Assembly: GCA_016928995.1 (NCBI GenBank)
Contig: JAFGJS010000036.1
Coordinates: 1 to 13,913 of the forward strand
Source: Candidatus Sumerlaeota bacterium
GTDB taxonomy: Bacteria > Sumerlaeota > Sumerlaeia > JAFGJS01
Direction: 5' to 3'
DNA: 13,913 nucleotides
Below, one piece after another: positions 4,213 to 11,450 of the stretch. How positions within the stretch are numbered: the stretch's first letter is position 1; every line of letters starts with the position of its first letter. The notes under the pieces are model-generated. The model made no database searches, was not told where the DNA came from, and worked only from the letters and a program-made list of their open reading frames with translations. The translations under genes were made by a program, and so were the position numbers.

Positions 4213-4278
4213 CGATCCGGCGCCTTATTTCGCTCATTGCGCCACAGCGCCCTGATGTGCGATTATGCGTGATTCGAG

Positions 4279-4305
4279 TAACAAAAAGCGCCATACTGTC
4301 GATAA
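4279..4305 (+). promoter_or_regulatory. Sigma-28 (FliA)-like flagellar promoter
   Basis: TAACAAAA (4279-4286), an 11-base spacer, then GTCGATAA (4298-4305). The well-known enterobacterial sigma-28 consensus is TAAAGTTT-N11-GCCGATAA. The -10 element matches at seven of eight positions, the first four bases of the -35 at three of four, and the spacing is exact. Transcription would start near 4312, upstream of the small gene and the FliK-like gene, which is a fitting target. If the promoter is real, the small gene cannot start at the ATG at 4265. The remaining -35 positions match poorly, and no transcript data are available. Confidence 0.5.
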
Positions 4306-4324
4306 GGAAGGTAGACGCAGCTTG

Positions 4325-4353
4325 CCCGGCGATCAGTCGCCCGGGAAAGGGCG
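4325..4353 (+). promoter_or_regulatory. Leader with two mutually exclusive hairpins over the ribosome site
   Basis: Hairpin 1 pairs CCCGGCGA (4325-4332) with TCGC and CGGG (4337-4340 and 4342-4345), with loop TCAG and one bulged C. Hairpin 2 pairs CGCCC (4338-4342) with GGGCG (4349-4353) around loop GGGAAA. They share bases 4338-4342, so only one can form at a time. Hairpin 2 covers the purine-rich stretch AAAGGGCGG ahead of the ATG at 4364; hairpin 1 would leave it free. This is read by eye and not folded by program. It does not match any riboswitch I know. Confidence 0.35.
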
Positions 4354-4363
4354 GTATAGTACG

Positions 4364-4651
4364 ATGGATGAGATCTTCAACATTCCCCAGATGGACAATC
4401 TGGCGAACAACATCAATCAGCGTGTGAAGCGGAGACAGCGAAATCAGGACCAGGGCCAACAGCCGAGTGATGAAGAGGAGCAGAACGCTGAAGAACAGCC
4501 CTCCGGCGAGGACGTGCTGGAACTTCGTTTGCTGGAAGCGCTCGATGATGAGCCTGAGCCGGCTCAACAGGACGCTCCTGAACGTAAAAATCAACCCGCG
4601 AACAAAGACACCCCGCCGGAATCCAACCATGCCATTGACATCGTGATTTGA
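4364..4651 (+). CDS. Small disordered acidic/Gln-rich protein coupled to the FliK-like gene
   Basis: Not recognised. From the ATG at 4364 the product has 95 residues. It has a short N-terminal part (MDEIFNIPQMDNLANNINQ), a basic patch (RVKRRQR), and a long stretch rich in Gln, Glu, Asp and Pro that looks disordered. A hydrophobic C-terminus follows (HAIDIVI). There is no signal peptide and no membrane segment. A longer form of 128 residues from ATG 4265 is open in the same frame, but its extra N-terminus would overlap the sigma-28-like promoter and the hairpin leader, so the shorter form is preferred. Only one base separates its TGA from the ATG of the FliK-like gene, so the two are almost certainly co-transcribed and translationally coupled. 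A role in flagellar assembly is inferred from context only. Confidence 0.6.
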   Translation: MDEIFNIPQMDNLANNINQRVKRRQRNQDQGQQPSDEEEQNAEEQPSGEDVLELRLLEALDDEPEPAQQDAPERKNQPANKDTPPESNHAIDIVI

Positions 4652-4652
4652 T

Positions 4653-6890
4653 ATGGACGCCAGTCTGCGAACATCGATCATCCGCCTGCCGGATACGCTG
4701 AAACTGCCCTCCGAAGGCGTGCGTGAATTGCGCATGGGCGACGCCGTGCGAGCCGTCGTGCAAGATGCTGCAGCCACGCCTCAAGGCGACCGCGCCGTAA
4801 TCCGCATCCTCGGCCACAGCCTCATCGCCGACACCCAAACACTGCTGACCAAAGGCGAAGTTTTGCGCCTCGAAGTTGCCTCGCTCCAGCCTCATGTCGA
4901 ATTGCGCATCATCGCGCAAGAGAGCCAGGCGGCGCAGCCCACAACAGTTCAGGACGCTGCGGCCATGCGCGGCATGCTGCTGGAAGCATTGCGGCAAGCC
5001 GGAGGAGCGCTAGCTGAAACCGCTCCAAACAGCGCGCAGAGCACAGCAGTGCAGAACGCCATGCTGAATCTGGCCGCGCAACCTGCCGCGGATCAGATCC
5101 GGCAGGTTCTGATGAATCTGAATCAGCCCGTGGAGACGATTTTGCGCACGGTCTTGCAGGCGAATTCCGAGTTGCCGTTCGAACTCATTCAAAACTTGCG
5201 CGCAGCACTCGCCAGCGCCGCGCTCGATACATCCAGCGCTGCGCAAACTCCTCAGACGTTGGTGCGATCCTTGTTTGAGGATGCTGTCGCCCGTTTGCAG
5301 GGACAGCTCACGCTGCAAACGCAACAAGGCGGAAAAGGCGGCATGCCCCAGGCTGAATTGCGCGCCCTGTTGCAAACGTTGCAGACATTGCCGCAGGAGG
5401 CGGCGCAGGTTTTCTCCCGCTCACAACCAGACAACTCGATGAACGCCCTGCAGACCGTTCTGGCGCGCATCCCCACTGGCCCGAACCAAAGCGGACTGCC
5501 GGCGCAATCCTCCCCTGCCGCATTCACGAACATCGTATGGGAACCGCTGGGGCATTCGCTGGAACTTTTATCAAACCTTGGGCCGCAACCGTTGAAGATG
5601 CCTGGCGGCTTGCGGCAGATTTTCTCTCAGCAGTTGCAACAAGCCTTGAATCTGCGCATGCCGGTAGAAGCCTTGCCGGTTGCAGGAAAATGGCACATGC
5701 TGGTCGAAATGGCGCGCGTCTTGCAGGCGCATCCCGCCGCAGGCCTTGACGGACAGGCATTCTCCGCGCTGCTGGAAATGACCGGCCGGTCGCTTTCACC
5801 CCAAGCCACGCCGCAACAGATCGCCCAATGGCTGCAAGCGCAATCGGGCGCTCTGCAAAACCTGATCGCCCTGCAAACCGGCGCGGGATCGCCTTCGGCG
5901 CTGACCTTGCTGCCATTGCACTGGCATCAGGCGCTGCAGAATTTCATGCAGCAACTGGCGGCGAATATTCAGCCACCGGGGCAACCTTCAACCACAGCGG
6001 CTGCTCAGCAACAATCAACTGCCTTCGTGATCTCTCCGTCTGATATATTCGCGCACAGCAAACTCTGGAACGCCGCGCTGCATGCGGCGATGTCCGGCGT
6101 ACAAGCCGTGCATCAACACCCGGAGAGCGTTCAGGGCATCTTGCAGCATATGGAGCAATTGCTGCAAAGCATCCTGCGCGAAACACCTCAAGCCCCGGCT
6201 GCGCGAGCCACGCAAAATGGCGCTACGCCAGCGCTCTCGCGCAATGCTCCGCTGCTCATGGAACTCCGCTCCGCTTTGCAGACCGCGCTGAATTCGATGG
6301 CTTCGTCCGGCTCATCGACCTCAACTCTGGTATCGGCGCAGCAAACCGTGGCGCCCGAGGCCCTACCGCAAGCCTTGATCCTGTTGGCCCAGGCAGAGGC
6401 CGCCCAGTTGCGTGTCTCAACGTCCGGATTCGTTAATCCGCTCCGCGAGCTGGCCGTACGGCTCGAAGCGCATCAGACGATCAACGCCTTCAACGCTGAA
6501 GCCGCGCGGCCATTGCACCTGCTGCTGCCGATGCTGGGACTTGGGCTGTTTTCCATGGCGGAAATCCGCGTGCTGCGCGAAAACCGCGAACGGCAAAAAT
6601 CCGGCGGCAAAGCGGGCTATAACCTGCTGCTGGTGCTTGATCTCAAACACGCTGGCGTCATGCAATTCGAGTTGCACGTCCACGAGGACCGGATTGAAAT
6701 GCTGATCACGTTCTCCCGTGAGCCGACGCTCAAACGCGCGGAAATCATGCTCGAATCGCTTAAACAGGAACTGGAAGAAACGGGCTTTAAGCTCCAGGAT
6801 ATCCGCCTGCTGCACAATCCCGATCTCGCCGAGATCGAAGACAACGGCGCTCACGGCCTGCGTTATAAGCAGGTCAACATGAAAATCTGA
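4653..6890 (+). CDS. fliK: FliK-like flagellar hook-length control protein
   Basis: Likely hook-length ruler and export-specificity switch protein, acting in the flagellar type III export apparatus and exported through it. The C-terminal part resembles the Flg_hook domain (PF02120) at about residues 650-725. It has alternating strands (LVLDLKHAGVMQFELHVHED, then IEMLITF), a helix (RAEIMLESLKQELEETGF) and a final strand (DIRLL). Residues 1-90 look like a small beta-rich N-terminal domain also seen in some FliK-like proteins. The middle, about 90-620, is rich in Gln, Ala and Leu, as expected for a FliK ruler region. At 745 residues it is longer than typical FliK proteins of roughly 400-600. No other flagellar structural gene lies in the window, and no FlhB-tail gene follows as it does after Bacillus ylqG. 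The start codon is one base after the upstream stop. Expression is probably from the sigma-28-like promoter. Confidence 0.75.
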   Translation: MDASLRTSIIRLPDTLKLPSEGVRELRMGDAVRAVVQDAAATPQGDRAVIRILGHSLIADTQTLLTKGEVLRLEVASLQPHVELRIIAQESQAAQPTTVQDAAAMRGMLLEALRQAGGALAETAPNSAQSTAVQNAMLNLAAQPAADQIRQVLMNLNQPVETILRTVLQANSELPFELIQNLRAALASAALDTSSAAQTPQTLVRSLFEDAVARLQGQLTLQTQQGGKGGMPQAELRALLQTLQTLPQEAAQVFSRSQPDNSMNALQTVLARIPTGPNQSGLPAQSSPAAFTNIVWEPLGHSLELLSNLGPQPLKMPGGLRQIFSQQLQQALNLRMPVEALPVAGKWHMLVEMARVLQAHPAAGLDGQAFSALLEMTGRSLSPQATPQQIAQWLQAQSGALQNLIALQTGAGSPSALTLLPLHWHQALQNFMQQLAANIQPPGQPSTTAAAQQQSTAFVISPSDIFAHSKLWNAALHAAMSGVQAVHQHPESVQGILQHMEQLLQSILRETPQAPAARATQNGATPALSRNAPLLMELRSALQTALNSMASSGSSTSTLVSAQQTVAPEALPQALILLAQAEAAQLRVSTSGFVNPLRELAVRLEAHQTINAFNAEAARPLHLLLPMLGLGLFSMAEIRVLRENRERQKSGGKAGYNLLLVLDLKHAGVMQFELHVHEDRIEMLITFSREPTLKRAEIMLESLKQELEETGFKLQDIRLLHNPDLAEIEDNGAHGLRYKQVNMKI

Positions 6891-7023: not shown

Positions 7024-7119
7024 ACAACCCGGACTGAAGCATTCGATGATTACAATTTCATTCACCGTGGTGAGATCATCGGGTAAAGCCATTTGCCCTA
7101 TCTTCAACCGGAAAAGAAC

Positions 7120-7151
7120 AATGCGCAATTGGCCATCGCCAATTGCGCATT
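7120..7151. terminator. Perfect 14-bp hairpin between convergent genes
   Basis: AATGCGCAATTGGC (7120-7133) and GCCAATTGCGCATT (7138-7151) are exact complements around a four-base loop, CATC. It lies 28 bases past the stop of the minus-strand gene at 7180. Read on the minus strand the stem is followed by GTTCTTTTCC, which suits a terminator for that gene, although the T-run is broken. The stem and the flanking ATGAATTAA also look like a dispersed repeat, so the terminator role is inferred. Confidence 0.55.
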
Positions 7152-7179
7152 ATGAATTAAGCAGAGACAGCTCTTGCCC

Positions 7180-7872
7180 TTATTGTTTCACACGATTCGC
7201 TAATTCGCGGATCGTGGCGATCAGTTCTCGCGTGGTCTCTTCCTCTGGAGTAAACTCGGCTGAATCTTCCGCGAGATACGCCAGCATCTCATTGACATGT
7301 TCGAGCACCGCCCCATACCCCAACAAGTCGACCTCCATGTCGGAGTCCTTAACGGATGCCTCAAGGAGTTCATAAAGAGCGTCCTCAAACATGGCGGCGC
7401 CTTCGTCGTCGGCCAGTTGCGCCGCGGCGTTCCGCAGAGTCTCGCCGTGCGTCTTCATATGCCCCTGCACCAATTCATAAAAGAAATCATCGGCGCCGTT
7501 GACGAGTTGATCCGCGGTGCTCAGGATTTGCGATTGAATCCAGCTGCGAAATTCCGGCAGGCTCTCGCGCAAGATCTTGTCGAACAGGCCATCCACCAGC
7601 GCGGGAACTTCCTCGCTGGCCGTCTCTTCCAGCGCGGCTCGCGTCCGGGGCAGCGTATCCACAACACGGTCGATGGCAATCGCCGCGACTTCATCCGGCT
7701 CAATCGCCTCTTTCATCTTCCCGGACATAAAGGCGAAGTATCCGAAAATAACCGCCATCAGGACGAATCCAACGAAGAGATTGTTATTGTTATGGCGCTT
7801 GAGCTGTGCGATTTCGGCGTCCAGTTTCGCTTCCAGGGACTTCAAGTCTGTATTGTTGCTTGAATCGTTCAT
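7180..7872 (-). CDS. Single-pass membrane protein of unknown function, helical extracytoplasmic domain (B of pair)
   Basis: Not recognised. It has 230 residues. A polar N-terminus with a short predicted coiled coil (residues about 9-27) is followed by one membrane segment at about 32-50 (FVGFVLMAVIFGYFAFM). A helical, acidic domain of about 180 residues follows and probably lies in the periplasm; the basic KRH before the membrane segment supports that orientation. There is no cleavable signal or lipobox. The ATG overlaps the stop of the upstream gene by ATGA and has a strong ribosome site (AGGAGG, eight bases upstream), so the two are a translationally coupled pair. The layout and parts of the sequence resemble the upstream protein: LPEF occurs in both at the same relative place after the membrane segment. 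That suggests an old tandem duplication. Confidence 0.8.
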   Translation of the reverse strand: MNDSSNNTDLKSLEAKLDAEIAQLKRHNNNNLFVGFVLMAVIFGYFAFMSGKMKEAIEPDEVAAIAIDRVVDTLPRTRAALEETASEEVPALVDGLFDKILRESLPEFRSWIQSQILSTADQLVNGADDFFYELVQGHMKTHGETLRNAAAQLADDEGAAMFEDALYELLEASVKDSDMEVDLLGYGAVLEHVNEMLAYLAEDSAEFTPEEETTRELIATIRELANRVKQ

Positions 7873-8672
7873 TGCTGAGCCTCCTCGTTAAGATTGCGCG
7901 ACGCTTCCACTTGTTTGAAAAACTCCATCAGATTGGGGTTATCCGAAGAGGCCAGTTTTTGCACGGCATAGGCACCCAGAACGTGGGTGAGATGATTCTC
8001 AAGCTCGGCATCGGACATCGCCTGGATATGCTCGGGTATCGGAAACTCATCGATCATCCGTTGCAGTTCCTTTGTCGAATTGATGTGATCTTTCAAGTAG
8101 GTATCAAGAAAACGATCCAGAGCTCCTTGGGCAGCTTTCTGCATATTGGAGGCGATCAGCTCCGCCTTTTCCGGATCAGCGGCTTCGGGAAGCTCCGCCT
8201 TCAGGACTTTTTCCAGCCAACTCACCATTGATTGACTGCGATTTTGCAGCCGTTTTTCCGCTTCAGCGGATAGGTTATCCACCAGAAGCTTGCTCTCTTT
8301 TTCCAGTTGCGCGCTGAATTCCGGCAGCCGTTCGGTTGATTTATCTCGAACGATCTGCACAACAACCGGCCCGGTGTTTTTCAGCAGCTCCTGGGCTTCC
8401 AACTGAAGCGCGGGCAACACGCGTTGCTCCACTTCCTTGCTGAAGGCTTGCTGGTAAGGCGCTGGATTCTGGTATGCGGATAAAACAGGACTCAGCAAGA
8501 CATATACGCCGGCAATCGCCACCACCGCCACCAGAATGGCCAACAGAAAACCGGTGCGCTTGGTTCTCTGCATGGCCGTCTTCATCGCCGCCAATTTTTC
8601 ATGCAGACGGCGCGCCTGTGCATTGACGCCTTCCTGTGCGCTTCCACTGGACTGCTTCTCATCTTCATTCAT
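7869..8672 (-). CDS. Single-pass membrane protein of unknown function, helical extracytoplasmic domain (A of pair)
   Basis: Not recognised. It has 267 residues from the ATG at 8670-8672; a GTG one codon further upstream is also possible. The ATG is preferred because AAGGAG lies eight bases from it. Residues about 15-38 are a basic amphipathic helix. One membrane segment follows at about 41-61 (GFLLAILVAVVAIAGVYVLL). A helical domain of about 200 residues, rich in Glu, Gln, Lys and Leu, comes next and probably lies in the periplasm. There is no signal peptidase site. It is the first gene of a two-gene unit and ends inside the start of its partner. Helical, coiled-coil-like domains beyond a single anchor occur in envelope scaffolds and in sensor-like proteins, but no catalytic or binding motif is visible, so no function is assigned. 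Confidence 0.8.
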   Translation of the reverse strand: MNEDEKQSSGSAQEGVNAQARRLHEKLAAMKTAMQRTKRTGFLLAILVAVVAIAGVYVLLSPVLSAYQNPAPYQQAFSKEVEQRVLPALQLEAQELLKNTGPVVVQIVRDKSTERLPEFSAQLEKESKLLVDNLSAEAEKRLQNRSQSMVSWLEKVLKAELPEAADPEKAELIASNMQKAAQGALDRFLDTYLKDHINSTKELQRMIDEFPIPEHIQAMSDAELENHLTHVLGAYAVQKLASSDNPNLMEFFKQVEASRNLNEEAQQ

Positions 8673-8989
8673 CACAAGATCTCCTTTTAAAGAATTGAAC
8701 TCATCTTAAGAGAATTGAGGCTTGGTTATATATAGCAATCCCGCAAAAAAACCCGTACACTCCCTTTCGACGTTTTTTTGACTTTGTTTAGATAAAATCA
8801 GCGATAATGCAAAGAAATCTGCAAGTGCGGGAAATTCGCTCGATGAAAGCAAGAGCGTCAAAATCGATTGATTTTAATGCGTTTGCGCAACTACATTGTT
8901 GGTTTTTGGTGTCTTAAGGGATCATAAGGTCAAAATCGAACAATCCCAAGCATTAAGATATATCATTGTTGAGCGGTAACTTAAAGCAC
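8673..8989. other. AT-rich intergenic region between minus-strand genes
   Basis: About 317 bases with no credible gene. It must hold the minus-strand promoter of the membrane-protein pair. A TATATA at 8728-8733 could be its -10 element, but no good -35 element lies at the right distance. An 11-base direct repeat, GTCAAAATCGA, occurs at 8857-8867 and 8929-8939. On the plus strand TTGACT (8779-8784) followed 19 bases later by GATAAT resembles a promoter, but no plus-strand gene follows. No clear terminator is seen for the Nnr gene that ends at 8990. Confidence 0.5.
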
Positions 8990-10538: not shown

Positions 10539-11450
10539 TCACTTTCGCAGTTTCAGGTATCCCAGACGCTTCAATTCATGGTCTTTCTTAGTCCAGTTCT
10601 TGCGCACCTTCACCCAAAGTTCCAGGTACACCGGACGCCCGATCAGTTCCTCAATCTCCGGCCGGGCCTCGCGGCCGATGTCTTTCAGCGCCGCGCCGCC
10701 CTTGCCGATCAGCATGCCCTTTTGCGATTCGCGCTCCACGTAAAGGATGCAGCGGATGAACGTTTTGCCATTCGCGCGATCCTTGAACTCATCGGTCTCA
10801 ACCGCAATAGAATAAGGCAACTCCTGTCCCATGGCGTGGTAAGCTTTTTCGCGCACGATCTCCGCCGTCAGGAAGCGCTCATCCCGATCCGACAGGATGT
10901 CTTCATCATAATAGCGCGGCCCTAATGGCAGCGCGGCGACGATAGCGTCCAGCATCGCCTCCACGCCGCTGCCGTCCAGCGCTGAAATCGAAAACTCGCG
11001 CTCATACTCCCCTGCCGGGACGCGATATGCAGGCTGCGCACCTGCGGGCAGCAGGTCCATTTTGTTATAGATCAGAAACTTGCGCGCATGGGCGCCTTGA
11101 ATCGCCTCGCGCACGCCTTCCGGAAACGGCGAGGCGTCGCGCGCGTCCACCAGATGCAAGACAAGGTCGGCATCGCGCAACCCGTCCAACGCCTCATCCA
11201 GCAGGCATTGATTGAGCTTGTCGCGCGGCTGCATCAAGCCCGGCGTATCCACGAACACCGCCTGGTATTGCTCCTCGCTGAGAATCCCCAGGATGCAGTC
11301 GCGCGTGGTCTGCGGCTTGTCCGAGACAATCGACACCTTCGCCCCAATCAACCGGTTCATCAGCGTGGATTTCCCTACGTTCGGCTTGCCCATCACGGCG
11401 ATATACCCCGACCGGTGCTCTGGATTGCATGTCTCTAAAAAATCATTCAC
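10539..11450 (-). CDS. era: GTPase Era
   Basis: Essential GTPase that binds the 3' end of 16S rRNA and helps mature the small ribosomal subunit. The G domain has G1 GKPNVGKS (21-28), G2 in PQTTRD (46-51), G3 DTPG (68-71), G4 NKMD (129-132) and G5 SAL (156-158). The C-terminal KH domain carries ERESQKGMLIGKGGAALK and the conserved IEELIGRPVYLELWVKV region. Length, 303 residues, is typical. The start is GTG at 11448-11450 and overlaps the end of ybeY by eight bases, so translation is probably coupled; an AAGGAG lies further upstream than ideal. The ybeY-era pairing is common in bacteria and both products act on 16S rRNA. Confidence 0.97.
   Translation of the reverse strand: MNDFLETCNPEHRSGYIAVMGKPNVGKSTLMNRLIGAKVSIVSDKPQTTRDCILGILSEEQYQAVFVDTPGLMQPRDKLNQCLLDEALDGLRDADLVLHLVDARDASPFPEGVREAIQGAHARKFLIYNKMDLLPAGAQPAYRVPAGEYEREFSISALDGSGVEAMLDAIVAALPLGPRYYDEDILSDRDERFLTAEIVREKAYHAMGQELPYSIAVETDEFKDRANGKTFIRCILYVERESQKGMLIGKGGAALKDIGREARPEIEELIGRPVYLELWVKVRKNWTKKDHELKRLGYLKLRK

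Follow-up and report, generated by a model that had tools for sequence, protein, structure and literature searches.

Two adjacent genes, here termed A and B, in a 13,913-nucleotide stretch of a Candidatus Sumerlaeota contig (the window) encode members of two undescribed protein families whose obligate pairing across phyla is new. We propose that the two proteins are probably subunits of an unstudied envelope complex.

Both minus-strand reading frames that the initial annotation had placed at 7180-8672 were found there; they overlap, as it described, and share an ATGA. Gene A (8672..7869, 267 aa) starts with an ATG at 8672, with a GTG at 8675 as an alternative start, and gene B (7872..7180, 230 aa) follows on the same strand, its start codon overlapping the stop codon of A by 4 bp (7869..7872). 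Each is preceded on the minus strand by a probable ribosome-binding site: a good GGAG for A (8681..8684) and a strong GAGGAGG of its own for B (7880..7886), the latter located within the 3' end of A. A terminator-like hairpin (7118..7153, minus strand), with a 16-bp stem followed by TCTTTT, lies 27 bp past the B stop; the gene downstream of B is convergent, and the gene upstream of A ends approximately 315 bp before it, which together set A and B apart as a two-gene unit. Among relatives the distance from A to B varies between -4 and +83 bp; most Fimbriimonadaceae share the 4-bp overlap of the window genes. Given this varying distance and the strong ribosome-binding site of B, the conserved trait is adjacency rather than strict translational coupling; the overlap from which the initial annotation argued is not general in the families.

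Several further features of this stretch were recorded. The terminator palindrome, TGCGCAATTGGC-N4-GCCAATTGCGCA (7118-7153), has copies elsewhere in the genome with 2 and 3 mismatches (C71:7138 and C88:29381, against 0 in the control) and is perhaps a small dispersed repeat serving as a terminator. On the plus strand, positions 4653-6890 encode a 745-aa protein whose C-terminus resembles FliK (PF02120, 24.7 bits, below the 29.8 cut-off), directly preceded by a small acidic ORF (4265-4651); besides this FliK-like protein, no flagellar gene was noticed in the window. A 162-aa ORF at the contig end (13371-13859, minus strand) has no Pfam match.

Both proteins are predicted to share one plan, namely a short helix in the cytoplasm, a single helix across the membrane, and a helical domain in the periplasm. 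Hydropathy gives exactly one hydrophobic segment in each, behind 30-40 N-terminal residues, in agreement with the architecture first annotated. In A the segment spans residues ~42-60 (8493..8549, minus strand; Kyte-Doolittle 3.02, next best window 0.36), and in B residues ~32-50 (7723..7779, minus strand; 2.27, next best 0.93). The positive-inside signal is clear in A, with 4 Lys/Arg before the membrane segment and 0 after, and weak in B. An Omp85 gene is present in 38 of 40 genomes of the window's phylum, including the window's own, and from this the large domains of A and B most likely face the periplasm. In three Fimbriimonadaceae loci (L105, L107, L108), the C-terminus of some A and B proteins is extended by a long tail of low complexity with much Pro, Ala and Lys, which looks as if suited to binding the wall or a partner.

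The likely paralogy of A and B, also raised at the outset, was borne out by profile comparison. BLASTP relates the two window proteins marginally (E 0.032), and hhalign of 15 members of each family gives a clear relation over 162 collinear columns (P=1.8e-9), extending to 218 columns with 27 A and 28 B members (P 2.7e-9). When only the part after the membrane segment is compared, the score is 46.6, while 100 column shuffles reach at most 16.5, so the membrane segment is not the sole carrier of the signal; a reversed control for the same part reaches 31.3 over 52 non-collinear columns, and helical composition therefore contributes to the score. The B-family HMM recovers the window A protein at E 2.4e-10 (B positions 4-176, A residues 12-193), where reversed sequences reach 0.027 at best and a background of neighbour proteins gives one weak match. 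An A model built solely from sequences of the window's phylum matches the B protein of a genome from an unrelated lineage (G113) at 1.7e-10. The signal is weaker when the Armatimonadota A and B sets are compared by themselves (P 3e-4), and the last 60-70 residues of A and of B have no convincing relation. On this sequence evidence A and B are paralogues. A tree of both families together splits them cleanly, with all A on one side of a branch and all B on the other at a support of 100, although the merging of two subalignments favors this separation somewhat. The two distance matrices correlate at 0.96 across 27 genomes, although a common species history is by itself enough to produce a high value. 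That each family forms one clade places one old duplication before the spread to three phyla, since when the two copies have travelled together.

Pairing is without exception among the genomes that carry either gene. Within the window's phylum, an A query and a B query each match 15 of 40 genomes, and these are the identical 15; in all of them A and B are adjacent, on the same strand, A first, and in one copy. Many genomes of the window's class have no such pair, which indicates that A and B are not a universal part of the envelope. Over 386 genomes, a B profile found the same 15 plus G113 and G191, and A adjoins B in both. G191 belongs to the Fimbriimonadaceae of the Armatimonadota, a phylum in which B occurs in 16 of 291 genomes, mostly Fimbriimonadaceae, with A beside it in all 16; in one case (G407) A falls under the search threshold, yet is plainly readable just upstream of B. 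G113 is the single genome of a third phylum with the pair (G113:C70, L068), and 385 further genomes sampled around it yielded no convincing additional member. As only 1 of 5 genomes of its genus has the pair, this copy was perhaps transferred or lies on a misbinned contig. Plasmids and phages searched for B contained no relative. The search for conserved pairing thus finds A and B together in 32 of 32 genomes from three phyla, on one strand with A first and each in single copy, with neither as a singleton, while absence elsewhere refers to approximately 1000 sampled genomes rather than to all bacteria.

These genetics of the pair suggest that A probably binds B, in line with the hetero-oligomer considered in the initial annotation. 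Co-inheritance by itself would also follow if A and B were separate homo-oligomers in one pathway, with adjacency merely equalizing their doses. Duplicated homo-oligomers may diverge in this manner, and each family has its own conserved positions; however, the lack of singletons in three phyla and the single copy of each gene fit interdependence better, and we consider separate homo-oligomers unlikely.

The initial annotation drew attention to a shared segment centered on LPEF, found at residues 116-119 of A and 105-108 of B. The tetrapeptide by itself is no evidence of kinship, because 1492 of 2000 shuffled pairs (75%) have at least one 4-mer in common, and in most relatives the site reads only as a hydrophobic residue followed by proline. 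The position stands up better than the letters: profile and merged alignments place the two LPEF sites in the same column or one off, and the proline is kept in 23 of 27 A and 28 of 28 B proteins. By alignment, this proline is homologous in A and B and forms the last rung of a proline ladder, which comprises P72 (partly), P87, P102 and P117 in A (8322..8459, minus strand) and P59, P75, P90 and P106 in B (7555..7698, minus strand). In the merged alignment the rungs of the two window proteins are in register. Counts of proline pairs, which pool related and hence non-independent sequences, show 42 pairs at a spacing of 15 in A against 3.7 expected; in B a spacing of 15 occurs 24 times and one of 16 occurs 19 times, where 3.3 and 3.2 are expected. 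Inside the ladder units hydrophobic residues tend to return every fourth position; the overall hydrophobic period is 3.8-3.9, matched in strength by 0 of 1000 shuffles, whereas that of a canonical left-handed coiled coil is 3.5.

Searches with the A and B families against Pfam, NCBIfam, PADLOC, and the PDB by sequence returned nothing above cut-off, including any enzyme or known binding domain, consistent with no family having been recognized at first reading. Weak matches to RdfA, SseC, CUE, and ApoLp-III were rejected as inconsistent among homologues. The RdfA match (PF21811) scores 18.8 bits against a cut-off of 27 in 1 of 28 B members and is not shared by homologues; the SseC/IpaB translocator-like matches (PF04888), which occur in 2 of the 27 A proteins and 1 of the 28 B proteins, reach 20.0 bits for A and 17.2 bits for B of G015 against a cut-off of 30.2. 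PADLOC anti-phage models do not match the window A or B, and their matches to homologues are weak and inconsistent. Our literature search found nothing on the pair. AlphaFold models of Fimbriimonadaceae A and B, made from 9-10 alignment rows, are mostly helix; with mean pLDDT of 45.1 (A) and 37.8 (B) they are too poor to be used as evidence.

Our preferred reading, to which we give somewhat less than an even chance, is that A and B form a hetero-oligomeric inner-membrane complex of diderm bacteria with a helical periplasmic stalk, acting as a scaffold or tether and not as an enzyme. Each subunit would lead from its short cytoplasmic helix through the membrane helix to four helical units of 15-16 residues and a more divergent distal helical region. 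Every ladder unit would open with a proline and bear a hydrophobic stripe at approximately every fourth residue; these stripes would pack A onto B, giving a kinked helical stalk in the periplasm, a helical-bundle packing that we infer. The divergent ends, both the distal regions and the N-terminal tails, might then hold further components of the envelope, which would let the complex work by scaffolding or tethering. This scaffold role is itself only tentatively assigned. A stronger version, in which A and B constitute a new diderm envelope machine, a heteromeric periplasmic stalk of 15-residue proline-stepped units perhaps a link between the inner membrane and either the cell wall or the outer membrane, is speculative and rather unlikely; such a stalk would so far be confined to the window's small phylum, to Armatimonadota, and to one lineage besides these.

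The same amphipathic units punctuated by proline would also suit membrane-anchored lipid handlers, with helices that lie on lipid or carry it from one membrane to another, as exchangeable apolipoproteins do. Weak sub-threshold Pfam echoes point this way as well: 2 of the 27 A proteins match ApoLp-III, at E 0.0085 at best, and 1 member matches Apolipoprotein (0.015). These matches, however, are far under the Pfam cut-offs and scattered among dozens of helical families, and apolipoprotein repeats are 11/22-mers rather than the 15-16 residues of A and B, which makes lipid handling a doubtful explanation.

Gene neighborhoods in relatives, compared as a guide to function, proved to be local to each lineage, with none conserved across lineages. 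A GNAT acetyltransferase lies upstream of the pair in f12 and an amine-oxidase-like protein downstream in f10, and some Fimbriimonadaceae have a serine hydroxymethyltransferase upstream. No pilus or secretion gene occurs among the sampled neighbors. With no conserved neighbors, context does not name a pathway for A and B. In three lineages, among them L068 and L085, a homologue of the window's Era-like GTPase (10542-11450) is encoded no more than ~7 kb from A and B, in differing orientation; this proximity is probably due to chance. A further reading takes A and B as a transmembrane sensor pair, in which the periplasmic helical domains would detect a ligand or stress and the cytoplasmic helices would pass the signal on to a partner encoded elsewhere. 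The topology is that of many bitopic sensors, and both proteins show partial conservation of an LExKLD-like cytoplasmic helix at the N-terminus, but neither has a kinase, HAMP, receiver, or DNA-binding domain and no neighbor is conserved across lineages, so that a sensor function appears improbable. Membership in the PilN/PilO kind of type IV pilus or type II secretion platform, suggested by the same bitopic paired plan, is largely refuted and very improbable: the window A and B have no match to PF05137 (PilN) or PF04350 (PilO) up to E 10, a PilN-like match of the window genome's own lies on a different contig (G000:C156), the mostly pair-bearing family f12 has no PilN match, and the pair lies outside any pilM-N-O-P cluster, with sampled neighbors free of pilus and secretion genes.

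As two undescribed families of ancient paralogues locked as a pair across phyla, A and B would offer a clean case for how a homo-oligomer turned into an obligate heteromer. They also point to an unstudied envelope component in scarcely studied lineages, such as the Fimbriimonadales, an order of Armatimonadota with at least one member in culture.

Several known systems resemble the proposed A/B complex in part. Apolipoproteins A1/A4/E and ApoLp-III likewise consist of amphipathic helices punctuated by proline, but they have no membrane anchor and repeats of 11/22, whereas A and B are anchored with repeats of 15-16; no match to Apolipoprotein (PF01442) or ApoLp-III (PF07464) exceeds the gathering score, and the window A and B have none. 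FtsL/FtsB is a small bitopic pair with a helical periplasmic part that acts as a heteromer. This divisome pair (DivIC type) is similar to A and B in joining two bitopic proteins with helical periplasmic parts, but its members are ~100 aa with a heptad coiled coil. A and B are longer, at 230-270 aa, and their proline ladder has steps of 15 residues; DivIC (PF04977) does not match the window A or B up to E 10. PilN/PilO of the type IV pilus and GspL/GspM of type II secretion form inner-membrane platform pairs (PMC5805733, PMC3815138). Like A and B, they are encoded by adjacent genes and have one membrane helix and a periplasmic domain each; they are known to heterodimerize, whereas the heteromer of A and B is one that we infer. 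The C-terminal domain of PilN/PilO and GspL/GspM is alpha/beta and ferredoxin-like, and their genes belong to pilus or secretion operons; A and B may be all-helical, and they stand alone. Paired bitopic proteins in one envelope complex are an already known kind of plan.
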